In this document: piece by piece, positions 35,073 to 50,283 of the stretch
Layout: every line of letters begins with the position of its first letter
Position numbering within the stretch: the stretch's first letter is position 1
Virus record (IMG/VR): IMGVR_UViG_3300003823_000003
Span: 1 to 50,816 of that record
Origin: a virus
DNA: 50,816 nucleotides
Reading direction: 5' to 3' (one strand)
Notes under the pieces: model-generated
Databases searched by the model: none
What the model was told of the DNA's origin: nothing
Seen by the model: only the letters and a program-made list of their open reading frames with translations
Position numbers and translations under genes: made by a program

Positions 35073-35074
35073 GT

Positions 35075-36009: not shown

Positions 36010-36052
36010 GTAGGCAAGGCCAATTTTTTTCAAGAAAAATGATCAGCAAGGG

Positions 36053-36081: not shown

Positions 36082-36125
36082 GAATCATCACGCGGCCATC
36101 AACCGCAGAGCATCGGAGCAAGACA

Positions 36126-36689
36126 ATGACCCAGTACAGCGAGATGACCAAGAAGGAGCTTCTGGCGGTCGCCAAGGACCTCGAGATCCAAGGCCGCCAC
36201 GACATGACCAAGGAAGAGCTGCTCGAGGCCATCCTTGAGGAAGACCCCCAGGATGACGAGGACGGCGAGGAGGACGCGGTCGAGGTCGCCGACAAGGAGA
36301 CCCTCGTCGAGATGAAGCGCCGCCGGCCCTCCAATGCCGAGCGAGACGAGAACGGCCGAGTGATCCGCAAGGACCGCAACCTCTCAGGAAACCTCCCCTT
36401 CGAGCCCAAGCTCTATGCCCTCTCCTCCTCCGTCGCCAACGAGCGGCGCTGGACCGAGGAGTATAAGGCGGCCCTGGCCGCCGCGCCCGGGCAGGTTAAG
36501 CTGATCCTCAAGGCCATGCGCCACGAGGGCATCGTGGGCGAGGACGGCCTGCGTGGCGGCGAGATCGTGGAGCTAGCCATTGCCAAGGGCTATATCTCCA
36601 CCAAGATTGACCCGCCTGCCCTCTGGGCCTACTACCGCCGCCTCCTCGAGGCGCTGGGCGTGGTTCACATCAACGATGGGGAGGGGTGA
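36126..36689 (+). CDS. Protein with Rho_N-like N-terminus and winged-helix-like C-terminus
   Basis: Residues 5-42 (MTKKELLAVAKDLEIQGRHD, TKEELLEAILEEDP) resemble the small helical Rho N-terminal or SAP-type nucleic-acid-binding motif. An acidic linker follows. The C-terminal 80 residues (GQVKLILKAMRHEGI, RGGEIVELAIAKGYISTKID, PPALWAYYRRLLEALGVVHI) look like a winged-helix domain that also appears in the gene two places downstream. Codon use is much more GC-rich and host-like than that of nearby genes. A DNA- or RNA-binding regulatory role is inferred. Confidence 0.7.
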   Translation: MTQYSEMTKKELLAVAKDLEIQGRHDMTKEELLEAILEEDPQDDEDGEEDAVEVADKETLVEMKRRRPSNAERDENGRVIRKDRNLSGNLPFEPKLYALSSSVANERRWTEEYKAALAAAPGQVKLILKAMRHEGIVGEDGLRGGEIVELAIAKGYISTKIDPPALWAYYRRLLEALGVVHINDGEG

Positions 36690-36955
36690 TGGCCACCCAT
36701 AAAAGAAACTCCCTAGCAAATAGGGAGGACCCAAGGCTAGGCAAGCCTGAGGACGCCGAGCTTTACCTGAAAGGGCTTCCAAAAGCCCTTTCTCACTATC
36801 TTAAGTACGAGTCACCAATCTTTTGGTCGCCTAGGTCCGTCTACAATATCTATAGAAAGCACGGCGCCGAGGCCACCCTATACCACCTAAGGACTATAAA
36901 CCGTATGGACGCCATAAGGGTTTACGGGCCGGATTACCCTATACCACCTCTATGA
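36689..36955 (+). CDS. Small basic protein of unknown function
   Basis: The ATG overlaps the preceding stop by one base (TGATG); a GTG one codon earlier is possible. The 88-residue product (EDAELYLKGLPKALSHYLKY, SVYNIYRKHGAEATLYHLRT, AIRVYGPDYPIPP) is basic and helical. Its codon use is AT-richer than that of the gene before it. No known family. Confidence 0.65.
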   Translation: MATHKRNSLANREDPRLGKPEDAELYLKGLPKALSHYLKYESPIFWSPRSVYNIYRKHGAEATLYHLRTINRMDAIRVYGPDYPIPPL

Positions 36956-37098
36956 GACTTAACCCAAAAACTAGCCAAGCTTAACCTCCCATTTTATGGG
37001 TTTACGTGGCAGTGGTTCTTATCTATCTCTATATTACTAGAAACTGATAACTCCCCTTTTGATCGTAGGGGTCCCATTAAACCAAGGAGAAGAGCAGC

Positions 37099-37488
37099 AT
37101 GAAGATCGAGCTTAAGGTCGTCCGAGAGCCGACCAAGGAAGACAAGCTGGCGCCCCAAGCCGCGGTCGTCGTCAAGACCATCGTCGGCAAGGTCGGCCTC
37201 AACGCGTTCATCGACCAGGGCGAGGTGATTGCCGAGCTTGAGGCCAACGAGGAGGCTGGCGTTGAGGGCCTTACCCTTAACACCCGTCAACCGCCCTCGC
37301 GGATCCTTTCATTCTACAAGAAGCCGCTGATCGACGCCGGCATCATCGAGGTCCAAAAGACCATCGAGGTCAAAGAAAAGGCTGAGGGCCATGAAGATGC
37401 CGAGCCCAAGGCCAAAAAGCCTCGTAAGGCCAAGGCGGCTGAAGAGACCGCCTCTGAAGGTCACAACGTCGAGGCCGCTGCGGCTTAA
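37099..37488 (+). CDS. Winged-helix-like protein with Lys-rich tail
   Basis: A strong ribosome-binding site (AAGGAGAAG) precedes the ATG. Residues 20-90 (AAVVVKTIVGKVGLNAFIDQ, GEVIAELEANEEAGVEGL, RQPPSRILSFYKKPLIDAGI) follow the same helix-helix-wing order as the C-terminal part of the protein encoded at 36126. The last 40 residues alternate acidic and Lys/Ala-rich segments (KAKKPRKAKAAEE). The GC-rich, host-like codon use suggests high expression. It may be an abundant DNA-binding protein. Not a named family to my knowledge. Confidence 0.7.
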   Translation: MKIELKVVREPTKEDKLAPQAAVVVKTIVGKVGLNAFIDQGEVIAELEANEEAGVEGLTLNTRQPPSRILSFYKKPLIDAGIIEVQKTIEVKEKAEGHEDAEPKAKKPRKAKAAEETASEGHNVEAAAA

Positions 37489-37534
37489 GACTATTGGTCA
37501 CCTTGGGTTTAACCTAAGGTAACCGGTGACGAGT

Positions 37535-37564
37535 GGCCCCCTCTACGTTGGGGTGGAGGGGGCC
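37535..37564 (+). terminator. Hairpin terminator after the Lys-rich protein gene
   Basis: A perfect 9-bp stem (GGCCCCCTC with GAGGGGGCC) with a 12-base loop stands 47 bases after the stop codon and is followed by GCTTTA. The T tract is short, so termination may be partial. Confidence 0.55.
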
Positions 37565-37796
37565 GCTTTAGTATCTAATTTCCTCTTAAACCTTGGCCAA
37601 TCTAGCCAAGCCAATAGGGGGTTATCGATGATAACCCCATGGGATACCATCTATATGGTCCCTCAAGCCACGACGTCTGGCGATTATGGGATTTCCGGCA
37701 AGGCCTATTAGCCTTGACCCACGGCCATGGGCCCAGGCTTTAGAAAATGACGCGCTCCGTCTGCCTGGGGGTAACGAGGAGTGATGCCCTCCCCAT

Positions 37797-37889
37797 GAGC
37801 CACTCCCGTGGCCAAGTGAGCCACTCCCGTGGCCAAGTGAGCCACTCCCGTGGCCAAGTGAGCCACTCCCGTGGCCAAGTGAGCCACTA
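37797..37889 (+). repeat. Four tandem 21-bp repeats, also a 31-codon heptapeptide frame
   Basis: The unit GAGCCACTCCCGTGGCCAAG+T occurs four times in perfect tandem (37797-37880) and a fifth begins and breaks off. Each unit holds a GCCAC-TCCC-GTGGC hairpin. Because 21 is divisible by three, a frame from the ATG at 37795 reads M, then SHSRGQV four times, then SH and a TAG at 37888. That ATG itself overlaps the end of a four-codon frame preceded by GAGGAG. Whether the repeat acts as DNA (iterons), RNA or peptide is open. Confidence 0.75.
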
Positions 37890-37945
37890 GCCCTTTCCTA
37901 CTTGGCCGCTAGCGTGGTAAAATAAGCCATTTTCAAAAATAAATA

Positions 37946-37974
37946 TGTATGAACCCGTGGTTTGGGCCTATAAA
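37946..37974 (+). promoter_or_regulatory. Promoter-like element, copy 2
   Basis: TGTATG, 17 bases, then TATAAA is followed by GGATCATCA, matching the element before 36126 across the -10 and the ATAAAG-R-ATCATCA string. It would begin a transcript about 20 bases before the 57-residue gene. Confidence 0.5.
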
Positions 37975-37999
37975 GGATCATCAACCACGGAGAACTTAG

Positions 38000-38173
38000 A
38001 TGCGCCTTTCTTCAGAAGACCTGCTTGACGCCCTCAATGCCGCTAAGGAGGCAGAGTGGGACTGCGACGACGACATCTATTACCAAGGCTGCAGCGTCGA
38101 CGATACAAAAGACTCTCGCGGCCAGCCCTTGAGACCCTACTACAACGAGGGCGGCGAGCCTTACTGGATGTAA
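38000..38173 (+). CDS. 57-residue acidic small protein
   Basis: An ATG behind GGAGAAC opens a 57-codon frame: MRLSSEDLLDALNAAKEAEW, then a DCDDD cluster, SRGQPLRPYYNEGGEPYWM and TAA. The protein is strongly acidic with several Trp/Tyr residues. The strong acidity and small size recall phage inhibitors or DNA mimics, but nothing more specific can be said. It is followed by a terminator-like hairpin. Confidence 0.65.
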   Translation: MRLSSEDLLDALNAAKEAEWDCDDDIYYQGCSVDDTKDSRGQPLRPYYNEGGEPYWM

Positions 38174-38201
38174 CCACCCTACCACCGCGGACAACCCGCC
38201 C

Positions 38202-38232
38202 AAGCCCGGAGCCGAAAGGTGGCCGGGCTTTT
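38202..38232 (+). terminator. Hairpin terminator
   Basis: AAGCCCGG pairs perfectly with CCGGGCTT across a 13-base loop, with TT and then a G-rich stretch after it. It lies 28 bases after the 57-residue gene and just before the ribosome-binding site of the next one, so it may attenuate rather than stop transcription. Confidence 0.55.
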
Positions 38233-38256
38233 GGGGTGTAACTAAGGAGATGAAAG

Positions 38257-38439
38257 ATGAGCCCGCAGCAATTAATCCTTGAAATGATCGCCGCCGAACA
38301 TCGCTTGGCAAATGAGCCCGACGCGCGCCGCGTGATCCGGAATGAGCGTCAAACACTTCAGGTCGCGTTAAGCGCCCGTCAAGGCAACATTCGAGAAGTC
38401 GCCGCGGAGGCCTTACGCGTTCTAAAGATGTGGCTTTAG
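38257..38439 (+). CDS. 60-residue helical small protein
   Basis: AAGGAGATGAAAG precedes the ATG. The product (SPQQLILEMIAAEHRLANEP, VIRNERQTLQVALSARQGNI, REVAAEALRVLKMWL) is predicted to be all-helical and basic-acidic amphipathic. No family is recognised. It is one of a run of four small genes with good ribosome-binding sites. Confidence 0.6.
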   Translation: MSPQQLILEMIAAEHRLANEPDARRVIRNERQTLQVALSARQGNIREVAAEALRVLKMWL

Positions 38440-38470
38440 CGCCCCTTCACCATCTAACAGGAGAATAGCG

Positions 38471-38638
38471 ATGACCCCATGGCCCAAAGACGCTGAAGGC
38501 AAAAACATTTCTCTCGGCAAACTTCCTAAAAATGTTCAGCGTCAATTGATGATTGAAAGCGCAGAGCGCGTTAAGCGCACGTTCGAGCATCCGAAAATGA
38601 CGCGCCTCATTGAAGCAATTTTGAAAGATTGCCCATGA
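38471..38638 (+). CDS. 55-residue basic small protein
   Basis: GGAGAATAGCG leads to an ATG with 55 codons: TPWPKDAEGKNISLGKLPKN, VQRQLMIESAERVKRTFEHP, KMTRLIEAILKDCP. The stop overlaps the next start (ATGA), which supports real translation. Basic and helical; function unknown. Confidence 0.6.
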   Translation: MTPWPKDAEGKNISLGKLPKNVQRQLMIESAERVKRTFEHPKMTRLIEAILKDCP

Positions 38639-38814
38639 CCACCAGTGCAACCATCCCAATCACCGTAACCGCTAATCAATATGCCCTCCTCGTTGCCTAC
38701 GGCTTTTCACCAACAAAAGCCGCTGAGATCGTCCTAGACGCCAAACGCGGCGACCCTTACGCCATTGAATGGCTTAACATCGTTCTCAAACAAACCAAGG
38801 ACCCTCGCTCATGA
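38635..38814 (+). CDS. 59-residue small protein
   Basis: The ATG lies in an ATGA overlap with the preceding stop (a TTG two codons earlier is less likely). The product TTSATIPITVTANQYALLVA, YGFSPTKAAEIVLDAKRGDP, YAIEWLNIVLKQTKD ends in another ATGA junction. A short beta strand followed by helices is likely. No family is recognised. Confidence 0.6.
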   Translation: MTTSATIPITVTANQYALLVAYGFSPTKAAEIVLDAKRGDPYAIEWLNIVLKQTKDPRS

Positions 38815-39077
38815 CCGTTCACGTTAGCACTTCAATTCAGTTAAACACCGCAGACGGTTACGTTAGCACTTCAATTCAGTTAGACACCGCAGACGGCGAT
38901 GTATCGTTTGTCGGTATCGCATGCATTCCGCAAAAGGTCGTTGTGAATCTGAGGGTCAATTTTTGGGATTACGCGTCAATCGTCCTAACCGCCACCCAAG
39001 CCCGCGACCTCGCCGCCGTCCTCCTCGCCGAAGCGGCGCGGGCGGATGCTTATAATGGGGAGGTAGGAGAACTATAA
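38811..39077 (+). CDS. 88-residue protein with a 13-residue internal tandem duplication
   Basis: After the start, VSTSIQLNTADGY is followed at once by VSTSIQLDTADGD, the result of a 39-bp tandem duplication. The rest (VSFVGIACIPQKVVVNLRVN, YASIVLTATQARDLAAVLLA) is a beta sheet followed by a helix. The duplication may add a strand or be a recent slippage event. The gene ends just before a strong terminator hairpin. Function unknown. Confidence 0.65.
   Translation: MTVHVSTSIQLNTADGYVSTSIQLDTADGDVSFVGIACIPQKVVVNLRVNFWDYASIVLTATQARDLAAVLLAEAARADAYNGEVGEL
38821..38898 (+). repeat. 39-bp tandem duplication
   Basis: Two adjacent 39-bp copies (38821-38859 and 38860-38898) differ at only a few bases and keep the reading frame of the 88-residue gene. 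Confidence 0.85.
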
Positions 39078-39083
39078 TCTGAC

Positions 39084-39120
39084 GAATAGGCCAAGGCAAC
39101 AGGATAGCCTTGGCCTATTC
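39084..39120 (+). terminator. Strong hairpin terminator (probably bidirectional)
   Basis: A perfect 14-bp stem (GAATAGGCCAAGGC with its exact complement) and a 9-base loop lie seven bases after a stop codon. The arms themselves end in A/T-rich sequence, with TTCTTACC following. It closes the small-gene block before the replication module. Confidence 0.75.
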
Positions 39121-39202
39121 TTACCATTTACAACCGCCCTATAGTCGTCTAGGATGGCCACCTACCCAAAATAAACGCCAACTAAAGAACTAAAGGACAA
39201 TT

Positions 39203-39754
39203 ATGCCAAACCATATGATGGTGGACCTTGAGACCCTTGACACCTCCCCCAGGTCCCTTATCCTTCAGGTGGGGCTCGTGGTCTTTGACCCTGATGACGA
39301 CCAAAGGTCCTTTATCTCTAGGTCTTGGAACGTTGACCTAGGCTCCTGCCACGTCCTTGGCGGCACCTACTCCGAGTCAACCCTCCTCTGGTGGCTTACA
39401 AACACAGAGGAGGCAAGGCGGTCCGTAGCCCAGGGCCCACGGGCCCCTATCACCACCGTCCTCCAAGAGCTTGGTCAAACATACCGCTCTAACGGCTGCC
39501 AGGCGGTCTGGTCCCACGGCGCCACCTTTGATATCCCAATCCTTGCCTACTACTACGACCGGCTGAAGGCGCCCTTGCCTTGGAAGTTTTGGGCGGCTAG
39601 GGACACAAGGACCCTGTTTGCCCTAGCTAAGGATCTCGCTGGTCATGATATAGAGAAGAGGACGGTTGCGCACACGGCTGAGGCTGACGCTAGGGCGCAG
39701 GCTGAGGACGTTCAGGCGGCGCTTAAGGCGTTGAGAGAAAGGACCTTGGGATAG
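39203..39754 (+). CDS. DnaQ-like 3'-5' exonuclease (Rv2179c/DUF5051-like)
   Basis: The 183-residue protein has DLET at residues 8-11 (Exo I, Asp8 and Glu10), a WSHGATFDIPILAYYYDRL segment (Exo II, Asp), and RTVAHTAEADARAQAEDVQA (Exo III, with H and D), the DEDDh set. The spacing matches the small exonuclease family that includes T4 DexA-like and Rv2179c-like enzymes acting on DNA or RNA. It is the first gene of the replication module. It may degrade host nucleic acid for nucleotide supply or assist proofreading. Confidence 0.85.
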   Translation: MPNHMMVDLETLDTSPRSLILQVGLVVFDPDDDQRSFISRSWNVDLGSCHVLGGTYSESTLLWWLTNTEEARRSVAQGPRAPITTVLQELGQTYRSNGCQAVWSHGATFDIPILAYYYDRLKAPLPWKFWAARDTRTLFALAKDLAGHDIEKRTVAHTAEADARAQAEDVQAALKALRERTLG

Positions 39755-39757
39755 CCT

Positions 39758-40468
39758 CTAGAGGTCCGCAGCAAGGTCTTCTGCTACTTTTTTATCTCTA
39801 ACCATGGCAGAGTGCTTGGTACGCCAAATTAAGCATTCCTCAGCAATCTTTCTTTTGTAGTTTAAGGCTGAATATTCACCCCTATAAAGATGTTCAATAA
39901 GCCTTACAGCTGTTGAGCCGTTTACTGATACTCTAAAAATAGACCTTGCTGTTCCAACTTTTGGTCTCTTATAGCCAAAACCTTCAATCCAGTCTGCACA
40001 CCTAGTCATGTCATGTAGGCTGCCAGACCAAGCTATAACTGGATATCTATAGCCTCTGTTTTTAACCCAAGCAACTGTTCCATCACCGTCGCAAAGACCT
40101 CGCCAAAAATGCTTAGATTCGTATATATCCTCTCGCAGTTCTTTTTTAAGATTTAAGGCTAGGAGAGGATAATATGGCTTTGACGAGGAAGCAATATACA
40201 TTTGACCCTTAGTCTCTCCAGTTAATTCATCCTTTTTAGCAAAGCTATTTTTTCCATGTTTTCTTGATGAAACTTTTCCTTCGCCTTTAACGTAATATAA
40301 AAAAGCTTGAACAGGTTCCTCGTGAACCTGTGCAAATACCACGCAACCTCCTTTTTTTCTGTATAGACCAGGTTTATATTCCTGGCCTACAATAGAGTTC
40401 ATACAACCGTCTGCTTGAAGATACCCTATCCAATACAGGTCTTGGTCAGTCAAAGGATCAGTAAACAT
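39758..40468 (-). CDS. Free-standing LAGLIDADG homing endonuclease
   Basis: The 236-residue protein has two dodecapeptide motifs, YWIGYLQADG (residues 12-21, Asp20) and FWRGLCDGDG (121-130, Asp129), about 109 residues apart, as in single-chain LAGLIDADG enzymes. Basic DNA-contacting segments lie between and after them (YKRKIAEECLIWRTK). It lies on the strand opposite all its neighbours, with AT-rich codon use, directly after the exonuclease stop. This is a typical intergenic mobile nuclease that spreads by cutting endonuclease-free relatives. No intron splice context is visible around it. Confidence 0.88.
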   Translation of the reverse strand: MFTDPLTDQDLYWIGYLQADGCMNSIVGQEYKPGLYRKKGGCVVFAQVHEEPVQAFLYYVKGEGKVSSRKHGKNSFAKKDELTGETKGQMYIASSSKPYYPLLALNLKKELREDIYESKHFWRGLCDGDGTVAWVKNRGYRYPVIAWSGSLHDMTRCADWIEGFGYKRPKVGTARSIFRVSVNGSTAVRLIEHLYRGEYSALNYKRKIAEECLIWRTKHSAMVRDKKVAEDLAADL

Positions 40469-40493
40469 TTTTGGTGTTAATTCCTAATAATCA

Positions 40494-40510
40494 AGTGTAT
40501 ATTATACACT
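40494..40510. promoter_or_regulatory. 17-bp palindrome between divergent genes
   Basis: AGTGTATATTATACACT is a perfect palindrome with one central base. It lies between the homing endonuclease start and the methyltransferase start. It overlaps TATA-like words usable as a -10 in both directions, so a regulator bound there could control both genes. Confidence 0.6.
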
Positions 40511-40544
40511 GTGATGCTAACCAAGTACACTATGGAGAAAAACC

Positions 40545-41492
40545 TTGGCAAACGCTAGAGGTAAGGAGATAGACACCACCGACCTTGACATCGACGCCGG
40601 TGAGGAAAGAATAATTCAGCACAGAGACCTCAGCGCTCATGTTTGGCGATGGACCCATGTTGCTAAACGTCTTGGGACAGGCGGCCGTTATAAGACCTCT
40701 AACGTGCTTGACATAGGCTGCGGTTGCGATCTTCCCTTGGCCCGTATGCTATACTCAAACCGCTTTATTCCAAATGACTATTGCGGCGTGGACTATAACC
40801 CGTCAAAAAAATTTAAGACCTCCATGTTTAATAACGGTCGCTTTCCGTTATACGCCTATGGCGCCGTAGACTTTGCCTCAGAAAAGGTTCTCATTCGCCC
40901 TCCTGAGATGGGGGAGATCACTGACAGCCTATGCCTATATGTTGATGGGGATAACTTTGAGGCCGAGCACACCCTACCCAACGTTTTAGTATCGTTTGAA
41001 AACCTAGAGCACGTCGAGGCGGGCCACATCAGGCGCCTGCTTATAAAGATGCTAGAGGTGATGCGAGCCACACTTAGGGTTAAAAATGAGGAGCCTGTGG
41101 CCTTTATCTCAACACCTTGCTATGACGCCAAGGTTGGGGCTGCTGCTAACCACTGCAGCGAGGTAACTCGAGACGCCCTAGGGGCCGTCATGGAGGACCT
41201 AGGTTTTTCTATCCTTGAAAACTATGGGACTTTTGCCTCTATCAAGGACTATAGGGATAACCTGCTCAAAGAACGCCCCGAGCTTACAAGGCTTTATCAT
41301 GAGCTCCACGCCTACTATGACGTTAACGCTCTAGCTAACTTTTTTGCACCAATTGTCCCACAGTGGTCTAGAAACAACATATGGGTTGTTGGGATAGCAA
41401 AGGAAGGCTATGAACGTAGGTTCCCCTCCCTCTCAAGCGTCCCTGGCCCCTGGACCTCTAGCGACCGCTGGCGTGAGCTGGCGGGAGAATAG
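40545..41492 (+). CDS. Class I SAM-dependent methyltransferase-like protein
   Basis: A TTG start (GGAG seven bases before it) gives 315 residues. Motif I, VLDIGCGCDLPLARM (about 54-68), the acidic strand YCGVDYN (79-85) and the VLVSFENLEHV strand (147-157) match the Rossmann methyltransferase fold of small-molecule or base methylases more than classical DNA methyltransferases (no DPPY or PCQ motif). The C-terminal 100 residues are helical and end in NNIWVVGIAKE. It heads a run of nucleotide-metabolism genes, so a nucleotide, base or tRNA substrate is plausible but unproven. Confidence 0.75.
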   Translation: MANARGKEIDTTDLDIDAGEERIIQHRDLSAHVWRWTHVAKRLGTGGRYKTSNVLDIGCGCDLPLARMLYSNRFIPNDYCGVDYNPSKKFKTSMFNNGRFPLYAYGAVDFASEKVLIRPPEMGEITDSLCLYVDGDNFEAEHTLPNVLVSFENLEHVEAGHIRRLLIKMLEVMRATLRVKNEEPVAFISTPCYDAKVGAAANHCSEVTRDALGAVMEDLGFSILENYGTFASIKDYRDNLLKERPELTRLYHELHAYYDVNALANFFAPIVPQWSRNNIWVVGIAKEGYERRFPSLSSVPGPWTSSDRWRELAGE

Positions 41493-41533
41493 CCCCACAA
41501 CCCTTAAATCCTACCCATCAAGGAGCACCCCAC

Positions 41534-42109
41534 GTGACAACGGACACCCCTCGAGACAAACTCTATAGAGACACCGCCCGCCGGATAGTCGAGATCATCT
41601 ACCCGGAGGCTTCACCCGAAAGAAAAGGCAACGCCATGCGGACGGTCGTCCACCAGATGCGTGAAAGCCTCGCCCTGATGACCCACGACATCAGGGAGTT
41701 TCATGAAAAGTTTGGCCTAGGCTACGACGGGCCGCCAAGGCTGCTTTCCCACGACCTTCGTGAGCTACGAGCCAAGCGGCTGATAGAGGAGGCCGAGGAG
41801 TACCTTAACGCCGACCTGTCAGAGGAGCAGGACGAGGACGGCGTAAACTTTCAAGCCACCCCCGAGGAGCAGATGGAGGCCGAGCTAGACGCCCTCGTCG
41901 ACGTCGTGTACGTGGCCCTTGGGACAGCCTACCTAAGCGGCTACCCCTTTGCCAAGGCATGGCAGCGGGTCCATGCGGCCAACATGGCCAAGGTTCGCGC
42001 TGAGCGGGCAGAGGACAGCAAGCATGGCTCAACCTACGACATCATAAAGCCTGAGGGTTGGGTCCCCCCGTCACACAAGGACCTTTTGTTCCCGTCAGCT
42101 GAGGGGTAG
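41534..42109 (+). CDS. MazG-like NTP pyrophosphohydrolase
   Basis: A GTG start behind AAGGAG gives 191 residues. The sequence FHEKFGLGYDGP, AKRLIEEAEEYLNADLSEEQ, EAELDALVDVVYVALGTAYL, PFAKAWQRVHAANMAKVRAE has the all-alpha layout and the EE(A/E)EE...D..VD (metal-binding) pattern of the MazG/PRA-PH superfamily. These enzymes hydrolyse (d)NTPs to (d)NMPs. The product could supply dNMPs to the kinase and synthase genes immediately downstream. Phage MazG proteins can also alter host nucleotide alarmone signalling. Confidence 0.85.
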   Translation: MTTDTPRDKLYRDTARRIVEIIYPEASPERKGNAMRTVVHQMRESLALMTHDIREFHEKFGLGYDGPPRLLSHDLRELRAKRLIEEAEEYLNADLSEEQDEDGVNFQATPEEQMEAELDALVDVVYVALGTAYLSGYPFAKAWQRVHAANMAKVRAERAEDSKHGSTYDIIKPEGWVPPSHKDLLFPSAEG

Positions 42110-42115
42110 CCTCCC

Positions 42116-43147
42116 ATGCCCCTTCAAAGTTTTCCAATAATAGCCCTTGTTGGGCCCGATGCAACAGGCAAGTCGACACTAGCTGCCAAGCTAGGGGAGC
42201 TCTACAACTACCAGTATCAGCACGCGACCTACCGGTTTAAGGACAAGATGGACCTCTACCACCTTGCCTACCTTGACCTTGCCTTAAGGAAGTCGGTCAA
42301 CGGCCCCGTCGTCATGGACCGTTGGTGGCCGTGCGAGCACGCCTACGCTGAGGTCTTTCGCCAAGGCCCCAGCTCCCCCAGCTACCAATGGCCCTACTAC
42401 GGGCAGATGCTTGACCGTGTCGCCCTTAAGCACGGCGTCCTTTATGTCTTTTGTTTGCCTAGGGACAAGGGCCGATACTTGGCCCACTTTGATAGGACAA
42501 GGCGGCAACGACCTGAGATGTTTGACAGCGTCTCAGCCGTCTATGACCAGTATGAGAGGCTCCTTAGCGGCCTTAAGGGCCACCCTAACCTTATACGCTA
42601 CGACATCTTTGACGACGCCAAGCCTTTTTACTCCGAGCTTAACAGCCTGGCGTGGCGCTCGTTTGTCTCGGCCACCTCCGGCGCCGACTTTGCCGCAGGT
42701 ATTGACGACCGGCGCTTTGCCGGTAACCTTAACGCCAGGCTTCTTTTGATTGGGGATAGGTCTAACAAACGCACGAGAAGGACCTCCTACCCCTTTATCG
42801 CCGGCCACTCTTGCTCGCCCTGGATCACTAGGGCCCTAAGCAACCTTGGCGTCAAGGAGGCCGACGTGGCCTGGGTTAACCTTCATGACGAGAGGGGCCG
42901 CGTCCAGTGGACCAAGGTCGAGCTTGACGCCTTCTATCACATGACGTTTGTGGCGATGGGCGCCTCTGCCCAGGCCTCCTTGACCAAGATGGGCTATCGC
43001 TTTGAGCGGGTCCCTCACCCGCAATACTACACAAGGTTTCACCACCATGTGACCAGGCCTGAGCGGCTAGTCAAGCTGTTTGAGGACCACGGGCTTTTTT
43101 CTACGCCAGCCAAGGTTATCTATGACCCTCTTAGGGAGTATGCGTGA
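42116..43147 (+). CDS. dNMP kinase-like P-loop domain fused to a glycosylase-fold-like domain
   Basis: Residues 1 to about 190 form a thymidylate-kinase-like domain: Walker A GPDATGKST (13-21), a VVMDRWWPCEHAYAE element with the DR motif (68-69), and FDRTRRQRPEMFD as a lid. From about 206 to 312 a second domain (ARLLLIGDRSNKRT, PFIAGHSCSPWITRALSNLG, WVNLHDERG, FVAMGASAQASLTKMGY, VPHPQYYTRFHHH) follows the strand-helix order and HP motif of the uracil-DNA glycosylase superfamily but lacks the GE(A/D)PG water-activating motif. The fusion suggests phosphorylation of a nucleotide or of a base held in the second domain. It is coupled to the synthase homologue. Confidence 0.78.
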   Translation: MPLQSFPIIALVGPDATGKSTLAAKLGELYNYQYQHATYRFKDKMDLYHLAYLDLALRKSVNGPVVMDRWWPCEHAYAEVFRQGPSSPSYQWPYYGQMLDRVALKHGVLYVFCLPRDKGRYLAHFDRTRRQRPEMFDSVSAVYDQYERLLSGLKGHPNLIRYDIFDDAKPFYSELNSLAWRSFVSATSGADFAAGIDDRRFAGNLNARLLLIGDRSNKRTRRTSYPFIAGHSCSPWITRALSNLGVKEADVAWVNLHDERGRVQWTKVELDAFYHMTFVAMGASAQASLTKMGYRFERVPHPQYYTRFHHHVTRPERLVKLFEDHGLFSTPAKVIYDPLREYA

Positions 43148-44019
43148 TGGTTGCCGCTAGGATGGAAAAAGACAAGACGCCTAGCACCAAGATAGAAAAA
43201 GGCAAGACGCCCAACGTCAACCAGGTTTGGCTTTCCCTACTTGAGGAGATCATGATAAGGGGCCAGGAGTGCGCCCCAAGGGGGAAGGCGATCAAGGAGC
43301 TTTTGGGCTATCAGACAAAAATTAGCATGAGAAGCCCCGTAGTCACGGTTGCCGCAAGACGCCTTGGCTATAGGTTTGCCGCAGCCGAGGCCGCCTGGAT
43401 CTTGTCAGGGGACAACCGTGTCTCCACCATCGCCCCTTACGCCTCCCACATCTCACAGTTTTCTGACGACGGCCTGAGGTTTTTTGGCGCCTATGGGGTC
43501 AAGGTCGTTGACCAGCTGCCCTACGTGTGTGAGGCCCTTGCCAAGGACCCCGACACCCGTCAGGCTGTCATAAACATCTGGCGAGAGAGCCCTAGGCCCT
43601 CTAAGGACATCCCCTGCACCTTGTCCCTTCAGTGGCTCATCAGGGATGGTAGCCTACACTGCCTTGACACCATGCGCTCTTCTGACGCCTGGCTTGGTTG
43701 GCCCTATGACGTCATTAACATGAGCCTAATCAGCGCCTACATAAGGCTTGTCCTTAAAACTAGGTATGGCGTTGAGGTTGGCCTTGGGGACCTAACGCTG
43801 ACCGCGGGCTCCCAGCATCTGTACGCTGACAATTGGCCCGCTGTTCAAAAGATCCTAGCTGGCGATGACCTAGCCTTGCCTACCCCAGACCTTCAGGTGG
43901 CTCTCGAGAATATTCCGCTTATTGCTCTTAATACTGAGAACCTTGTTAGCTGTCTTTGGCATATGGCTAACCACGGAGGCCTTTTAGACGGGATGTCTTT
44001 GGCGGAGAAAGGCCTTTGA
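43147..44019 (+). CDS. Thymidylate-synthase homologue, dCMP-type (candidate dCMP hydroxymethylase or methylase)
   Basis: The ATG overlaps the upstream TGA (TGATG); a GTG one codon earlier is possible. The protein has the ThyA fold: the nucleophile in RPSKDIPCTLSLQW (Cys at about 157), then LDTMRSSDAWLGWPYDVINM and GSQHLYADNWPAVQ. In classical thymidylate synthase the uracil-reading residue in LGLPFN is Asn; here the equivalent of that Asn is Asp (about 188). The same change in T4 dCMP hydroxymethylase and in engineered synthases directs the enzyme to cytosine. I therefore infer action on dCMP, giving 5-hydroxymethyl- or 5-methyl-dCMP. Confidence 0.82.
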   Translation: MVAARMEKDKTPSTKIEKGKTPNVNQVWLSLLEEIMIRGQECAPRGKAIKELLGYQTKISMRSPVVTVAARRLGYRFAAAEAAWILSGDNRVSTIAPYASHISQFSDDGLRFFGAYGVKVVDQLPYVCEALAKDPDTRQAVINIWRESPRPSKDIPCTLSLQWLIRDGSLHCLDTMRSSDAWLGWPYDVINMSLISAYIRLVLKTRYGVEVGLGDLTLTAGSQHLYADNWPAVQKILAGDDLALPTPDLQVALENIPLIALNTENLVSCLWHMANHGGLLDGMSLAEKGL

Positions 44020-44486
44020 ACCGCCCTGACGCCCACACCTACTTTATGTCGATGGCTATCCTTGTCTCAACAAGGGGCACGTGCCCTAGGCGAAGGGTTG
44101 GCTGTGTCCTTGTGGACAGCAACAATTTTGTCCTAGCTACTGGCTATAACGGGACCGCCTCAGGGCTTCCCCACTGCCTAGACCAGCCCTGCCCAGGGGC
44201 AGGGCTGGCATCGGGGCAGGGGCTAGAGCTTTGCGAGGCCGTTCATGCTGAAAGTAACGCCCTAACCCAGTGCCGTGACACTCGTGCTATCCAGTCGGTC
44301 TACGCCACCACCGCCCCCTGCGTCTCATGCACCAAGATGCTCATAAACACCAGCGCTAAAGCCATCTACTATCTCAGCGACTACCCTCAGAAGGAGGCCG
44401 AGGGCCTTTGGCGGCGGTCAAGGCCTGGGCGTGAGTGGGTTAGATGGACCGGGACCCTCTTAAGGATGGGGTTTCATGAAAGGTAG
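44016..44486 (+). CDS. dCMP deaminase
   Basis: A TTG start overlaps the preceding stop (TTGA). The 156-residue protein has the zinc-dependent deaminase signature HAESN (residues 77-81) and PCVSC (101-105), with GTCPRRRVGCVLVDSNNFVL and ATGYNGTASGLPHC typical of dCMP deaminases, which use GYNG-P to read the nucleotide. It converts dCMP to dUMP. In the same operon as a dCMP-type synthase homologue, it would balance the cytosine and thymine pools, as in T4-like phages. Confidence 0.9.
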   Translation: MNRPDAHTYFMSMAILVSTRGTCPRRRVGCVLVDSNNFVLATGYNGTASGLPHCLDQPCPGAGLASGQGLELCEAVHAESNALTQCRDTRAIQSVYATTAPCVSCTKMLINTSAKAIYYLSDYPQKEAEGLWRRSRPGREWVRWTGTLLRMGFHER

Positions 44487-46440
44487 AAAATTTGTCCCTA
44501 ACCCAACGCAGCTCCCCCTTTTCACCCCTGAGTCAGCGTGGCGGTGCCCTGACCCGATAGACTGGCCGGATTTTAGGGGGAGCTGTAAGGTAATAGGGTT
44601 AGATATAGAGTCTTATGACCCAAATCTATTAGAAAGAGGTCCAGGCTTTATCAGGGGTGACGCTCGTGTGGTTGGTATCTCTCTTGCCTCTGGTGATGGC
44701 CAAAAGATCTACCTTCCTATAGGCCACAGTCAGGACAATGTAGCTGATGTTAGGCAAGCTATTAACTATGTAAGGTATCAGCTAGGCGACCCAAGCATAC
44801 TCTACTGTGGGGCCAATCTTTTATATGACCTTGAAGGGCTCCATACCCTAGGCATAGAGGTTAAGGGAAAGCTAGGAGATATACAGGTTGCTGAGCCTCT
44901 ACTAGATGAAGAAAAAGAAGGCGGGTATAGCCTTAACGCGTTAGCTAAAGAATACCTTAATGAAACTAAAGATGAGCTTATATTAAACGAGGCTGCTGCG
45001 GCATACGGTGTTTCTCCAAAAGGCGGGATGAATATTATACCAGCCCGATTTGTTGCTGAATATGCCGAGACCGATGCCTACCTACCAGTAAAGATATTTG
45101 AAAAGCAGGCAGAGTCTTTAAAAAAAGAAGATTGTTGGGGCGTTTTTCTTATGGAGCAAAGGCTTCAAAAAACGCTATTAAAGATGCGCTTAAGAGGCTG
45201 TAGGCTTGATGTTTTAAAGACTGAGCAGCTAAACGAGCAATTTTTAAAGGATGAGGTTCTATACTTTTCTAATGTTCAAGAGCATAGGGGGTTAGGCCCA
45301 AGGATTAACCCTGCATCAGCCGTAGACGTAGCAAGGGTGCTTCGTGAGCAAGGCGTGTTTGATATCCCGGTCACAGCAAAAGGTGCTGACTCCATATCAA
45401 ATGAGTGGTTAGAGGGTCTTGACCTACCATTTGCAAAGGCAGTATACGCTTGGCGAAGGGTAGCCAAGTACAGAGGAGATTTTATTGAAAAATTCCTAAA
45501 AGAACAGGTTAAGGGCCGCCTTCACTCAAACTGGCACTCACTACGTAATTTTAACGAGGAAAAAGGCTCAGCCTTTGGAACAAGGTCCGGTAGACTCTCT
45601 GCAACTAATGTAAACTTGACCCAAATACCGGCAAGGGATGAGGAATATGGGTCAGTTATACGTAGTCTTTTTATAGCAGATGAAGGTAAAGTTTTTTTAA
45701 AGGGGGATGAGTCACAACAGGAATTTAGATGGACTCTTGACTATGCCGTAAGACTCCGTTTAACAGGTGCTGCTGAGGCTAACCAGCGCTATCTAGATGA
45801 CCCTAGGACCGACTTTCACTCTATGACCCAAGCCCTAATACTTGAAAAAACCGGTCGTGATATAGGGCGCTTCATGGCTAAGACTGTAAATCTTTCAAGG
45901 CTTTATGGCGCCGGGGTAAACAAAGTTTCACTGATGTTAGGAGTTACTCCTGATGAGGCCAAAACAATAATAGAGGCTTGGAACGCAGGCCTGCCTTTTG
46001 TTAGAGAGCTTGAGGCAAGGATAACAAAGGCAGCTAATGAAAGGGGTTGGGTAAAAACAATATCAGGGTATAAAAGAAGGTTTCCTTTATGGGAGCCAGC
46101 TGATAGACAAGCCTTTGGTTATGTCAAACCAATAAAAGACCTTAATAAAGCGATTAAGCTTTGGGGTAAGGTAAAGCGAGCTTACACGCACAAGGCCATG
46201 AATAGCGTAATTCAAGGAAGTAGCTCTTCGCAGATAAAGCAAGTGCTAATTCAACTTGATGATGAAAACCTAACCTGTAATGCCTGCATCCATGATGAGG
46301 TCATAGGTTCTTATGAAACTAACGAGGAGTTTAAAAGAGTCAAATGGATCATGGAAAATGCTGTAGAGACAAAGGTACCTTTTCTTGCAGACGTTGGTGT
46401 GGGTCCTAATTGGGCAGAAACTAAAAAAATTACTGACTAA
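44476..46440 (+). CDS. polA: Family A DNA polymerase (Pol I type) with 3'-5' exonuclease domain
   Basis: The 654-residue protein has an exonuclease domain (DIE at 43-45) and a full polymerase domain. Motif A is DESQQEFR (Asp411, Glu416), motif B is RFMAKTVNLSRLYG (Arg465, Lys469, Tyr477), and motif C is HDE (606-608). The residue equivalent to E. coli Phe762 is Leu473. The coding sequence is AT-rich from about codon 35 to the end, unlike both neighbours, whereas the first 30 codons are GC-rich, suggesting a recombination junction near 44585. No 5'-3' exonuclease domain is present. It replicates the phage genome with the primase-helicase. Confidence 0.95.
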   Translation: MKGRKFVPNPTQLPLFTPESAWRCPDPIDWPDFRGSCKVIGLDIESYDPNLLERGPGFIRGDARVVGISLASGDGQKIYLPIGHSQDNVADVRQAINYVRYQLGDPSILYCGANLLYDLEGLHTLGIEVKGKLGDIQVAEPLLDEEKEGGYSLNALAKEYLNETKDELILNEAAAAYGVSPKGGMNIIPARFVAEYAETDAYLPVKIFEKQAESLKKEDCWGVFLMEQRLQKTLLKMRLRGCRLDVLKTEQLNEQFLKDEVLYFSNVQEHRGLGPRINPASAVDVARVLREQGVFDIPVTAKGADSISNEWLEGLDLPFAKAVYAWRRVAKYRGDFIEKFLKEQVKGRLHSNWHSLRNFNEEKGSAFGTRSGRLSATNVNLTQIPARDEEYGSVIRSLFIADEGKVFLKGDESQQEFRWTLDYAVRLRLTGAAEANQRYLDDPRTDFHSMTQALILEKTGRDIGRFMAKTVNLSRLYGAGVNKVSLMLGVTPDEAKTIIEAWNAGLPFVRELEARITKAANERGWVKTISGYKRRFPLWEPADRQAFGYVKPIKDLNKAIKLWGKVKRAYTHKAMNSVIQGSSSSQIKQVLIQLDDENLTCNACIHDEVIGSYETNEEFKRVKWIMENAVETKVPFLADVGVGPNWAETKKITD

Positions 46441-46525
46441 GCCTTTGAAGGTCCCAATTATTTAAATTTTTCTTACATTCTTCAGGAAGCCTACTTTTTC
46501 CTAAACAACGCCATGGAGATCTCCC

Positions 46526-46753
46526 GTGATTGACAAGACTACCATCATCAGCACGCCAGCCTATTGCCACCGCACCTCTCAGACCGTTCAGCTGATCTCC
46601 CTCAATGGCGACGAAAAGACTGCCACGTGGTGCAGCAAGGGCCGGTCGGTCTTTGAGGGTGACGTGCCGGGTTGGGGCCTCCTTTGGGCCTCTTGGTGGT
46701 ACTCAAGGGACAAGGGCCTGATCGACCCCCACGACCCACAATGGCACAAATGA
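46526..46753 (+). CDS. 75-residue protein of unknown function
   Basis: A GTG start behind GGAG opens MIDKTTIISTPAYCHRTSQT, with several Trp residues near the end (WGLLWASWWYSRDKG). The gene ends in an ATGA junction with the nuclease gene, so the two are probably translated together. No family is recognised. Its GC-rich codon use contrasts with the polymerase gene just upstream. Confidence 0.65.
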   Translation: MIDKTTIISTPAYCHRTSQTVQLISLNGDEKTATWCSKGRSVFEGDVPGWGLLWASWWYSRDKGLIDPHDPQWHK

Positions 46754-47190
46754 ACGAGGAGCAGTTTTATCGCAACCACGTGAGGCCAGTGCTAGAGCGC
46801 TTTGGTGAGCATACCCGCATTGAAAACAGCATCTCAGCCGGCGTCTTTGACCTCTCCTACGCTCTTCCAGTTAATGAGGTCTATGGTGTCCACGGCTGGC
46901 TGGAGCTAAAGGTAGCCCGGGGTGGCAAGATCACCTTCCAGCGCTTTCAACTTCCTTGGGCGCGCTCGCGCGCCCGTATCACCAAGGGCCTTGGGCTCTG
47001 GGTCCTTGTCACTGACGGTGAGCTTATCTACCTTTATAACATCTTAGACGTCCTTGACGCCCCCAAGACCATAGCCAAGGCCTCTGACGGGAAGCCGCTA
47101 ACCGTCGTTGCCTTAGGCTCCATGAAACCCACGATCTACTCCCAACAGCCTTGGCCCTGGGAAAGGATAGTGAGGGTGCTGGCCTCTTAA
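46750..47190 (+). CDS. PD-(D/E)XK nuclease (VRR-NUC / phage resolvase-like)
   Basis: The start is placed at the ATG in the ATGA overlap; an ATG three codons earlier is the alternative. The 146-residue protein has FDLSYALP (metal-binding Asp) and HGWLELKVARG (the ELK of the PD-(D/E)XK core), followed by ITFQRFQLPWARSRARITKG, the supporting helix with Gln and Arg. Such small nucleases act as resolvases or repair nucleases. Placement between the polymerase and the recombination- and helicase-like genes fits processing of replication or recombination intermediates. Confidence 0.85.
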   Translation: MNEEQFYRNHVRPVLERFGEHTRIENSISAGVFDLSYALPVNEVYGVHGWLELKVARGGKITFQRFQLPWARSRARITKGLGLWVLVTDGELIYLYNILDVLDAPKTIAKASDGKPLTVVALGSMKPTIYSQQPWPWERIVRVLAS

Positions 47191-47252
47191 CATAACCTAT
47201 ACACAGGCCTTCCTAAAGGTGATAGGGTGGCCTACCATCAAAGGAGCATTGA

Positions 47253-47846
47253 ATGAATACAAACGCTATAGACCCCGAGCTATTAAGGGAGGCCCTTGAC
47301 GACGCGTCAGAGGCCCCCTCAGACGACAAGCTTAGCCTGGTCGCAAAGCTCGTTAAGCACCAGACCTACCTTGAGGACCGCAAGGAAGACCTCGAGGAGA
47401 TGCTAAAGGAGTGCAACCAGGAGCTAGAGGCTGTCCGCACGAGGCAGCTTCCGGACGCCCTCCTAGAGGCCGGCTGTCAGGCGTTTGAGACAAAGGACGG
47501 CCTTAAAGTCAGGCTTGAAAAGGTCTGCTACGTCTCAATCAAAAAGAGTGATGAGCCGGCGGCCTTTGATTGGTTTGCCAGCAACGGCCATGGCGGTGTC
47601 ATTGAAACGTCTGTCCTCATCCCCCTTGGAAAGGGTGGCCACGACACCGGAAAGGAGCTTGTTGAGCGCCTAGCTAAGCTAAACGACGTCCCTGAGGTTA
47701 AGCTCTCAGAGACCATCCACTGGGCCACGCTAAGGGCCCTTGGCAAGGCGTTAATAGCCGAGAACGAGGAGGCCGGGACCCCCTTGCCCCCTGAGATCAT
47801 CAAGCTTACCCCGACTAACGTCTCTAAGATCAAGAGACCTACCTGA
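47253..47846 (+). CDS. Phage replication-module protein with N-terminal coiled coil
   Basis: This 197-residue protein has an acidic N-terminus, a coiled coil (LVKHQTYLEDRKEDLEEMLK, ECNQELEAVRTRQLPDAL), then GCQAFETKDGLKVRLEKVCY, FDWFASNGHGGVIETSVLIP, and a final ETIHWATLRALGKALIAENE. This pattern recurs beside the ssDNA-binding or nuclease genes of many T7-like and other phages, but its function is not established to my knowledge. An accessory role in replication or recombination is likely. The gene end is duplicated just after the stop. Confidence 0.7.
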   Translation: MNTNAIDPELLREALDDASEAPSDDKLSLVAKLVKHQTYLEDRKEDLEEMLKECNQELEAVRTRQLPDALLEAGCQAFETKDGLKVRLEKVCYVSIKKSDEPAAFDWFASNGHGGVIETSVLIPLGKGGHDTGKELVERLAKLNDVPEVKLSETIHWATLRALGKALIAENEEAGTPLPPEIIKLTPTNVSKIKRPT

Positions 47847-47869
47847 ATTTAAGATCAAGAGACCTGCCT
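47825..47869 (+). repeat. 20-bp direct duplication of a gene end
   Basis: TAAGATCAAGAGACCTACCT (47825-47844), covering the last codons of the coiled-coil gene, is repeated with one mismatch at 47850-47869, five bases further on. It looks like a small local duplication. Confidence 0.8.
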
Positions 47870-47900
47870 AACCAACCCCACCTAAAAGGAACCATAAAAC

Positions 47901-48716
47901 ATGTCTAAAAATGCAGTTGCAGTTAAAGAAAGCGCTGAGGTCGTTGAGGCCTCCTTGCCTGCGGGCTATGACCTTGATGAGCTTCAAAGGGACGCCGCGG
48001 CCAACCCTCAGCTAAGCGCCGCCGACATCGCCATCCCCTTCTTGGTCATCCTTCAGACCAACTCGCCTCAGGTCAACCCCGCCAAGACCCAGTATATCCC
48101 TGGCGCCACGGCGGGGATGATCTATAACAGCGTCAGCGGGGAGGTCTACGACGGCCGCACCCAAGGGGTGGTAATCGTCCCTTGCGCCTATCACAGGGCC
48201 TACGTTGAGTGGGTTCACCGCGACAACGGTGGCGGCTGGGTGGCGGAGCACAGCATTGACTCCGACATCTTGTCTAGGACCACCCTTGACGAGAAAAAGA
48301 AGCCTCGGCTTGAGAACGGCAACGTGATCACCGAGACTGCCTACAACTACGTCTTGTTTCAAAACCCCACGACCGGCGCCTGGTCCCAGGCCCTTGTCGC
48401 CATGTCATCTACCCATCTCAAGGCCAACCGCAAGCTCAACCAGATGATCACGGCCTCAAAGATCCCTGGCACGGACATCCAGGCACCTCGGTTTTTGTAC
48501 GCCTACCAGCTGACCTCTACCATCGAGACCAAGGGCGAGAACGCCTTCTTTGTGCCGGAGCTTAAGAAGATCGAGAGCCCCATCGAGGTGACCCTCTACC
48601 GCCACGCCAAAAAATACGCTGAGGCGGTGAACAGCGGTAAGGTTCAAGTTGGGGCCGCCACCCAGGTCCCTGCCGCCGAGGAAAGTATCGACCCGGAGAC
48701 CGGTGAGATCCTTTAG
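47901..48716 (+). CDS. Putative ssDNA-binding or recombination accessory protein
   Basis: The 271-residue protein is beta-rich (FLVILQTNSPQVNPAKTQYI, GMIYNSVSGEVYDGRTQGVV, IVPCAYHRAYVEWVHRDNGG, AYNYVLFQNPTTGAWSQALV). It ends with an acidic, hydrophobic-tipped tail (EESIDPETGEIL), which recalls the partner-binding tails of phage ssDNA-binding proteins. It lies between the coiled-coil protein or nuclease genes and the SNF2-type helicase. I do not recognise the family with certainty; the assignment is from fold-like features, tail and neighbourhood. Confidence 0.6.
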   Translation: MSKNAVAVKESAEVVEASLPAGYDLDELQRDAAANPQLSAADIAIPFLVILQTNSPQVNPAKTQYIPGATAGMIYNSVSGEVYDGRTQGVVIVPCAYHRAYVEWVHRDNGGGWVAEHSIDSDILSRTTLDEKKKPRLENGNVITETAYNYVLFQNPTTGAWSQALVAMSSTHLKANRKLNQMITASKIPGTDIQAPRFLYAYQLTSTIETKGENAFFVPELKKIESPIEVTLYRHAKKYAEAVNSGKVQVGAATQVPAAEESIDPETGEIL

Positions 48717-48742
48717 CCATAACTAATAATCGATAAAAGCTA

Positions 48743-48787
48743 ACGGGTGGTCTTGACACATAGCAAAGTGTAAAGGCCACCCGTTTT
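48743..48787 (+). terminator. Hairpin terminator
   Basis: ACGGGTGG pairs with CCACCCGT, the stem continues inward through CTT/AAG and ACAC/GTGT, and TTTT follows the hairpin. It lies 26 bases after the preceding stop and just before the helicase gene. Confidence 0.7.
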
Positions 48788-48825
48788 AGTACCGTGGATA
48801 GCTACCCTAGCAAGGATTATTCCGA

Positions 48826-50283
48826 GTGGCTGACTTTTCAACCTATCTCTTTAACCTCACCCCCTATAGCTATCAGCTGAGGATCCTTGAGGAAACGTCA
48901 GATAAGGCCTATTGGGCGTGGCTGCTTGAGATGGGCCTGGGAAAGTCAAGGATCTTAATAGACAACGCGGCCTACCTTTACCTAAAGGGCGAGATAGACG
49001 CCCTTGTCTTTGTGGGGCCTAAGGGGTCCTACGCCAACTTTTATTGGGACCAACTGCCAACCCATCTGCCGCCCTCTGTGCCCTCACAAGCCTTTCTTTT
49101 TTCAACCCTAGTCGTCGCTAAGAGGTCAGGCAAGGACGAGCTGGCGCGTTTTCTCAAGCCGGCCAAGGCCCTTAAGGTCTTTATCATTAATGTCGAGGCG
49201 TTTATTACCGACTCAGGAAAGGCAGCCTTGACGGCCGTCTTTAAGAGCTTCCCTAAGGTTATATTCGCCCTTGACGAATCAACCTGTGTTAAGAACATAG
49301 ATGCCGCCAGGTCAAAGGCCGTCTATGCCTGGGCAGCCAAGGCCAAGTATAGAAGGATAATGACCGGCTCACCGGTCACCCAGTCCCCTTTAGACCTTTA
49401 TGGCCAGTCGTTGGTCCTTGGCAAAGGCATCCTTGGCCATAGCTCGTTTTACTCTTTTAGGGGCGAATACGCCACCCTCGTGACCGACTACTTTGGCCAG
49501 AGGGCCGTCAAGCGGGTCTCCGGCTATAGAAATCTTGACAAGCTGTCAGAGGTCATAAAGAGCTTCTCAACGCGGCTTACAAAGGAGGAGTGCCTTGACC
49601 TGCCGCCTAAGGTGTACTCCAAGCTTTATGTTGAGATGACGCCAGAGCAGCAGAGGCTCTACGAAAAGATGAGGGACGAAGCTCTTCTAACGCTAAATAG
49701 CGGTGAGGAGGTTGAGGTCACCACGGCCCTCGCTCAGATCGTTAAGCTGCATCAGATCTCCTGCGGGCAGCTTAAGCTAGACGACCGCTACGTCTCTATT
49801 GAGAACAATAGGGTCCCAGCGCTGCTTACTCTTCTAGAGGGCTATGCAGGCAAGGTGATCATCTGGGCCAACTACAGACAGACCTTAGAGGACGTCATTA
49901 AGGCCTTGAGGGAGGGCTACGGGGACGAGGCCGTCGTAGGCTACTACGGCGGGGTTAGTGAGGCGGATAGGGCTCTGGCCATCAAGGGCTTTCAGGACCC
50001 CAAATCCCCAGTTAGGTTTTTTGTGGCAAACCCCCAGAGCGGCGGCTACGGCCTCACGTTAACGGCAGCTCAACTTGTCGTCTACTACTCTAATGGCTAC
50101 TCTCTTGAGCAGCGGCTTCAAAGCGAGGACCGTGCTCACCGCATCGGGCAAACAGGCGCGGTAACCTATGTCGACCTAGTCTCGCGTGGGACCGTTGATG
50201 AAAAGATCATCGAGGTCCTAAGAGGCAAGAAAGACCTGGCAAATGAGGTGATGGGGGTTAGAAACTGGGCGGCCTGGCTTTAG
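48826..50283 (+). CDS. SNF2-type superfamily 2 DNA helicase/translocase
   Basis: A GTG start gives 485 residues. Motif I is MGLGKS (36-41), motif II is DEST (150-153), motif III is MTGSP, and motif VI is QSEDRAHRIGQTG, all typical of the SNF2 branch. Motif V is represented by NPQSGGYGLTLTAAQLVVYY. These enzymes translocate on duplex DNA. Phage relatives may remodel replication forks or recombination intermediates. It has its own upstream terminator, so it probably has its own promoter. Confidence 0.92.
   Translation: MADFSTYLFNLTPYSYQLRILEETSDKAYWAWLLEMGLGKSRILIDNAAYLYLKGEIDALVFVGPKGSYANFYWDQLPTHLPPSVPSQAFLFSTLVVAKRSGKDELARFLKPAKALKVFIINVEAFITDSGKAALTAVFKSFPKVIFALDESTCVKNIDAARSKAVYAWAAKAKYRRIMTGSPVTQSPLDLYGQSLVLGKGILGHSSFYSFRGEYATLVTDYFGQRAVKRVSGYRNLDKLSEVIKSFSTRLTKEECLDLPPKVYSKLYVEMTPEQQRLYEKMRDEALLTLNSGEEVEVTTALAQIVKLHQISCGQLKLDDRYVSIENNRVPALLTLLEGYAGKVIIWANYRQTLEDVIKALREGYGDEAVVGYYGGVSEADRALAIKGFQDPKSPVRFFVANPQSGGYGLTLTAAQLVVYYSNGYSLEQRLQSEDRAHRIGQTGAVTYVDLVSRGTVDEKIIEVLRGKKDLANEVMGVRNWAAWL

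Follow-up and report, generated by a model that had tools for sequence, protein, structure and literature searches.

The 5-hydroxymethylcytosine (hmC) pathway of phage T4 consists of the dCTPase gp56, the dCMP hydroxymethylase gp42, the dNMP kinase gp1, the dCMP deaminase cd and beta-glucosyltransferase, and sugars and a carbamoyl group are among the caps known on phage hmC. Contigs with an hmC carbamoyltransferase, described in the MetaGPA study, combine such a tailoring enzyme with thymidylate synthase (TS), PRA-PH and dCMP-deaminase domains, and comparable sets of these domains mark modified contigs in that study (PMC8670742). Two cultured phages, Stenotrophomonas phage AXL3 and Pseudoxanthomonas phage PW916, carry a five-gene module that includes a methyltransferase (MTase) and a kinase fused to a domain of the uracil-DNA glycosylase (UDG) superfamily; this module has been annotated as thymidylate synthesis. 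Here we describe a bacteriophage locus with the same five-gene module, whose proteins are 25-47% identical to those of AXL3 and PW916. The predicted steps are like those of T4 and the signature residues of the hydroxymethylase are identical, but the locus differs from T4 in having a TS homologue of MilA-like lineage, a MazG-type pyrophosphatase, a family A polymerase, a TMP-kinase-like kinase fused to a UDG-like domain, and an MTase where T4 has glucosyltransferases and the MetaGPA contigs have a carbamoyltransferase.

The window, by which we mean the whole 50,816-nt stretch analysed, is IMG/VR record IMGVR_UViG_3300003823_000003, positions 1-50,816. The module studied occupies positions 40545-44486, and its genes and the adjoining polymerase gene are as follows.

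40545-41492, + strand: SAM methyltransferase (MTase), 315 aa, UbiG/Hen1-like; Pfam Methyltransf_23, 1.6e-7
41534-42109, + strand: MazG-like all-alpha NTP pyrophosphohydrolase; Pfam PRA-PH, 8.8e-8
42116-42685, + strand: P-loop dNMP kinase half, approximately residues 1-190; YorR 8.7e-20 and TMP kinases, by profile
42686-43144, + strand: UDG-superfamily (family-4-like) half, approximately residues 191-343, fused to the kinase; whole ORF 42116-43147
43144-44019, + strand: TS homologue of putative dCMP hydroxymethylase (dCH) type; Pfam Thymidylat_synt, 1.6e-22
44016-44486, + strand: dCMP deaminase; Pfam dCMP_cyt_deam_1, 2.2e-20
44476-46440, + strand: family A DNA polymerase with 3'-5' exonuclease domain; Pfam DNA_pol_A, 6e-46

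An earlier, sequence-only reading had placed five ORFs and the downstream polymerase at these positions, in agreement with the ORF list, and the families it named for them were borne out by Pfam and profile matches. It had also described the genes as mostly overlapping, which is correct for three of the five junctions (4 nt between kinase and TS homologue, 4 nt between TS homologue and deaminase, 11 nt between deaminase and polymerase) and incorrect for the first two, where there are gaps of 41 nt (MTase/MazG) and 6 nt (MazG/kinase). The same gene order was found again in many contigs. A longer IMG/VR record, G001 (64,192 bp, partly retrieved as L008 and L039), was 100% identical to the window over both stretches compared (window positions 33144-50816 and 1-6707); its extra ~13.3 kb sits between the end and the start of the window, and the ORFs printed for that segment included neither a glycosyltransferase nor any other evident tailoring enzyme. 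ThyX was found neither in the window record nor in G001. A search of the annotated phage collection revealed no phage nearly identical to the window, and a PADLOC defence search gave no match except a weak deaminase-domain overlap.

We examined the TS homologue at the positions that distinguish the enzymes of this family. With C158 as the nucleophile, D189 aligned with N177 of EcTS and D179 of T4 gp42, so the Asn-to-Asp change claimed by the sequence-only reading is real. D155, located at Cys-3 (D155-I-P-C158), aligned with T4 D145, where EcTS has Leu, and S179 and R139 occupy the deoxyribose-selecting positions. D179 has been linked to the choice of cytosine and D145 to hydroxymethylation, Asp or Glu at Cys-3 being a mark of hydroxymethylases (PMC6400193), and the Ser/Arg pair has been linked to deoxyribose selection (PMC5175136). 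The closest solved relative, MilA of mildiomycin biosynthesis, has Ala176 and Lys133 in place of this deoxy-type Ser and Arg, and dCMP rather than CMP is therefore the expected substrate of the window protein. Written as a two-residue code (Cys-3/base reader), EcTS, which methylates dUMP, is L/N; the enzyme of phage M6, which we take to be a dUMP hydroxymethylase, is D/N; and T4 gp42 and the window protein are both D/D. Every one of 75 scored proteins retrieved with the TS profile had Asp at the reader position. The Asp reader was present in 75 of 76 scored TS homologues from a set fetched by the UDG domain, and among these 75 the Cys-3 residue was Asp in 72 and Glu in two. Because Asp recurs across the scored homologues, as does the gene order, we do not regard the Asn-to-Asp change as a chance event. 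The best PDB profile match was the CMP hydroxymethylase MilA, at 8e-41, as compared with 2e-25 for the best TS. In the aggregate, the protein met what is expected of a dCMP hydroxymethylase (Asp reader, Asp at Cys-3, Ser and Arg) and failed membership in the thymidylate synthases, both by its Asp reader in place of Asn and by its score of 65 bits, which is far below the curated NCBIfam cut-offs of 327 and 108. The signature residues, the controls, the relatedness to MilA and this low score make dCH the best call, although the activity itself is inferred.

The MazG-like protein matched DR2231-type MazG in the PDB, and E85, E86, E89, D119 and D123, which supply the EExxE...DxxxD metal ligands, were invariant in 14 relatives; we infer that it is a dCTPase/dUTPase in the role of T4 gp56. 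The kinase half was weak in Pfam and clear by profile, and structural comparison gave VIA Z scores of 16.8 for YorR and 15.9 for human TMPK. We infer an hm-dCMP kinase in the role of T4 gp1, and likewise infer that the family A polymerase uses the modified dCTP. By the roles expected from family knowledge, MazG, kinase, dCH and deaminase correspond to the gp56-gp1-gp42-cd pathway, and since these four genes restate that of T4, this much of the pathway is already known. The claim that the MTase and the kinase fusion lie outside the classical T4 set thus needs to be narrowed: the kinase fits the job of gp1, and what goes beyond T4 is the MTase and the kinase-fused UDG-like domain. Among 189 distinct dCH loci, some of them incomplete at their ends, the kinase cluster was present at 180, the polymerase at 134, the deaminase at 128 and the MTase at 94. 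The dCH signature and the module families support the proposal of a cytosine-modifying and nucleotide-supply module, and this compact gene set very probably swaps the cytosine of the phage DNA for hmC, although no activity has been measured.

With a profile made from 12 relatives of the MTase, IMG/VR gave 343 matching stretches, and 84,980 species genomes gave 6 loci; when the window protein served as query, 5 of 50,697 annotated phage records matched. From the 80 top-scoring hits to the family in IMG/VR came 69 distinct loci, which are related contigs and not phylogenetically independent; 39 of them were well flanked, with at least 3 kb upstream and at least 4 kb downstream. A dCH lay near the MTase in all 39 (31 MilA-like, 8 T4-like). 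Eleven of the 69 loci were without a dCH, and every one had partial flanks. Two loci at which a dCH seemed to be missing, L086 and L096, are cut short. At L100, L105 and L109 a T4-type dCH was present that the MilA-type query had not detected; further MTase loci with a dCH were L282, which carries an additional divergent D/D enzyme, L284 and L285. All 18 T4-like dCHs at MTase loci, 10 of which came from partly flanked loci, carried D145, C148, D179, S169 and R123. On the MTase tree (FastTree, long branches flagged), the starred branches require no fewer than four switches of dCH lineage. The association at 39 of 39 loci, its extension to two dCH lineages and the repeated switching between them are the reasons why we consider the MTase substrate most likely to be derived from hmC, a conclusion that is drawn from gene neighbourhoods and remains a prediction. 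The MTase is at the same time an optional tailoring enzyme, since it is missing from roughly half of the dCH loci. The MTase and a C5-MTase/GT cluster tended to exclude each other (MTase only, 78; cluster only, 9; both, 3; neither, 48; Fisher p 0.028), but this mutual exclusion is a weak hint, uncorrected for relatedness.

The optional nature of the MTase leaves room for the possibility that the DNA contains plain hmC and that the MTase acts elsewhere, on RNA, protein or host nucleotides. The core pathway is complete without this enzyme, and Hen1-like enzymes are known to methylate RNA. Yet a constant association with dCHs of two lineages, re-paired repeatedly, would be difficult to account for if the substrate did not derive from hmC, and we therefore consider plain hmC a possibility that is less probable than a cap, though the strongest of the competing explanations.

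As to the chemistry of the MTase, E152, E155, H156 and H203 (ExxEH...H) were invariant in 49 sequences with identities down to 21%, and UbiG and Hen1 were, after one lysine MTase, the best PDB relatives by profile; a single-sequence PDB search gave nothing useful. In UbiG/COQ3/Hen1, ExxEH...H binds a divalent metal. The MTase satisfies what defines the UbiG/Hen1 group (class I, ExxEH...H and profile matches), but differs from UbiG and Hen1 in having N- and C-terminal motifs of its own, HRDYxAH and APLFPxxSRN, and in being tied to hmC enzymes. Its predicted model (pLDDT 94.5) had at the top of its structural matches CmoM (Z 18.2, rmsd 4.4, 224 aligned), a tRNA enzyme whose methyl acceptor is an oxygen in the C5 side chain of a pyrimidine; ChlM (Z 17.6, rmsd 2.8, 192 aligned) was among the many other class I enzymes it resembles, as was HEN1 (Z 15.9, rmsd 2.9, 187 aligned). 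It should be noted that the model resembles class I enzymes of all kinds and that O-, N- and C-methyltransferases cannot be told apart by the fold search, which allows that the target might be N4 of hmC or some other atom and not the hydroxyl. We think this unlikely: the DPPY-like motif IV by which DNA N4/N6 MTases are recognized is absent, the region reading SFENLEH (FExLEH), and the metal-site-like ExxEH...H points to O-methylation. On this signature and the UbiG/Hen1 relatedness, we infer O-methylation of the hydroxymethyl group of hmC, at the nucleotide or the DNA level, both the atom and the metal dependence being inferred. This suggests 5-methoxymethylcytosine as the putative product; a literature search of partial coverage found no report of this base in nature.

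The sequence-only reading also described a kinase fused to a glycosylase-fold-like domain, and structure comparison agrees, with YorR and TMPK for the kinase and 1vk2 and 1ui1 for the UDG half. The UDG half was related to type-4 UDGs by profile (1ui0, 3.1e-6); searching the PDB with the single fusion sequence gave only weak matches. G213-D214, N255 and H301-P302 are conserved, the corresponding motifs G-[D/E], N and H-P being present at 95-99% and the full pattern in 115 of 131 distinct rows. The domain thus has the fold and the motifs of family 4 UDGs, but unlike them it is kinase-fused, phage-borne, adjacent to a dCH and without the four Fe-S cysteines, as no Cys column was conserved (highest, 30%). 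The fusion is not peculiar to the window: an N-terminal P-loop was found in 124 of 133 distinct UDG-domain proteins. When loci were fetched by the UDG domain alone (best 80 hits, from contigs that are related and cannot count as independent), a dCH was present at 64 of the 69 distinct ones, directly adjacent at 44. We found no description of phage kinase-UDG fusions in a literature search of partial coverage. Members of the UDG superfamily can excise modified cytosine as well, as is known from Brig1 (PMC11078745), which acts on alpha-glucosyl-hmC as a host defence enzyme, whereas the window domain is phage-borne. The presence of a kinase and a glycosylase-fold domain in one chain, tied to a hydroxymethylase, also recalls the 5-hmU kinase and aGPT-pyrophosphorylase, and the UDG-like half could by analogy carry out a transferase-like step on a base phosphorylated by the kinase. 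We give this little weight, as the kinase is TMP-kinase-like, many dCH loci have it with no UDG half attached, and the UDG active-site pattern is intact. Most likely, the UDG half removes U or hmU arising from deamination around hmC synthesis; target and activity are inferred.

Two further explanations concern the TS homologue itself. The Asp reader alone would fit any cytosine-directed member of the family, including a dCMP methylase that makes 5-methylcytosine, as in Xanthomonas phage XP12. Asp was, however, found at Cys-3 in the window protein and 19 of 20 aligned sequences, which makes a methylase improbable, albeit without an XP12 sequence as direct control; a search of IMG/VR with the XP12 primer pattern, as a route to such a control, gave no match. 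Of the earlier proposal of a 5-hydroxymethyl or 5-methyl product, we accordingly retain only the former. Ordinary thymidylate supply, the reading given to the module genes by the authors of AXL3 (PMC7504290) and proposed likewise by the annotators of PW916 (PMC9414467), rests on gene names in those records and can practically be set aside given the signature residues, the score far below the TS cut-offs, the separate ThyX that each of these phages encodes and the restriction resistance of AXL3 DNA. The AXL3 gene order (MTase, NTPPase, kinase-UDG, TS, deaminase) is that of the window, and of 37 restriction enzymes tried on AXL3 DNA, the two that cut it, TasI and Tru1I, recognize sites made of A/T only, whereas the 35 that it resisted all have G/C in their sites (PMC7504290). 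This resistance does not distinguish C from G, leaves the base unnamed and is not proof for the window phage.

Two known modification systems do not fit the window. Thymine hypermodification by 5-hmU kinase and aGPT-PPlase needs an Asn reader, as in M6, whereas the window has Asp. An hmC carbamoyltransferase module would need PF16861, which was not found in G001; this family occurred in one of 50 related records, at a locus without the MTase.

The explanation we favour, with reasonable though far from complete confidence and with no biochemistry for these proteins, is that cytosine is exchanged for a modified base before DNA synthesis and that the base is then capped. MazG would convert dCTP to dCMP, and the TS homologue, as its residue signature predicts, would convert dCMP and methylene-tetrahydrofolate to 5-hydroxymethyl-dCMP. 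The kinase half would yield the diphosphate and nucleoside-diphosphate kinase the triphosphate, which the neighbouring polymerase would incorporate, while the deaminase, from family knowledge, would turn surplus dCMP into dUMP. The MTase, tied to hmC by neighbourhood, may then methylate the product, most likely at the hydroxymethyl oxygen, to give 5-methoxymethylcytosine, both atom and product being inferred. The UDG-like half, with its motifs in place and its target inferred, would most likely remove U or 5-hydroxymethyluracil derived from deaminated dCMP, hm-dCMP or hmC in DNA. A more specific proposal is tentative, and we would not bet on it at even odds: that phage DNA contains 5-methoxymethylcytosine, made by an O-MTase family that has been repeatedly re-paired with different dCHs, and that the kinase-UDG fusion acts as a checkpoint, phosphorylating hm-dCMP and destroying deaminated U/hmU. 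The suggestion that the module decorates the base further, and that the base may be new, gains support from the ties of MTase and UDG domain to dCHs, but the final base remains unproven.

Why a kinase and a UDG domain are joined in this widespread architecture is not understood. The MTase family is abundant in environmental viruses and nearly absent from annotated phages, two cultured phages having it. A methyl cap, if true, would be small, uncharged and cheap, and could block restriction enzymes and also the type IV enzymes directed at hmC or glucosyl-hmC; the enzyme would also be a new reagent for sequencing and biotechnology. MTase-capped hmC may be a DNA letter that has so far not been described.

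A LAGLIDADG-like homing endonuclease ORF (window 39758-40468, minus strand) sits immediately upstream of the module and runs opposite to it, and a Rho_N domain was matched in the ORF at window 36126-36686 (Pfam, 1.7e-7). About 13.3 kb of the longer record G001 (L039:1-13293), positioned between the window's end and start, is missing from the window; among the ORFs of this stretch are one that is repeat-rich and pentapeptide-like and another that is SLOG-like.

By eye only, we read L017:4647-6530 as a ThyX-like gene close to a dCMP hydroxymethylase gene, its ORF seemingly interrupted by an intein-like insert. Record G015, which has a dCMP hydroxymethylase locus (L127) without the module's predicted hmC O-methyltransferase nearby, carries a carbamoyltransferase match (PF16861, 8.8e-27; stretch L288).

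Near other dCMP hydroxymethylase genes, at loci also without that methyltransferase, we observed C5-cytosine-methyltransferase-like proteins accompanied by an unannotated family of GT-B-like appearance, at:
L018:6978-8027
L018:8386-9426
L031:5925-8537
L030:1167-2174
The two parts, which occur as separate proteins or as one fused 870-aa protein, possibly represent an alternative tailoring route.
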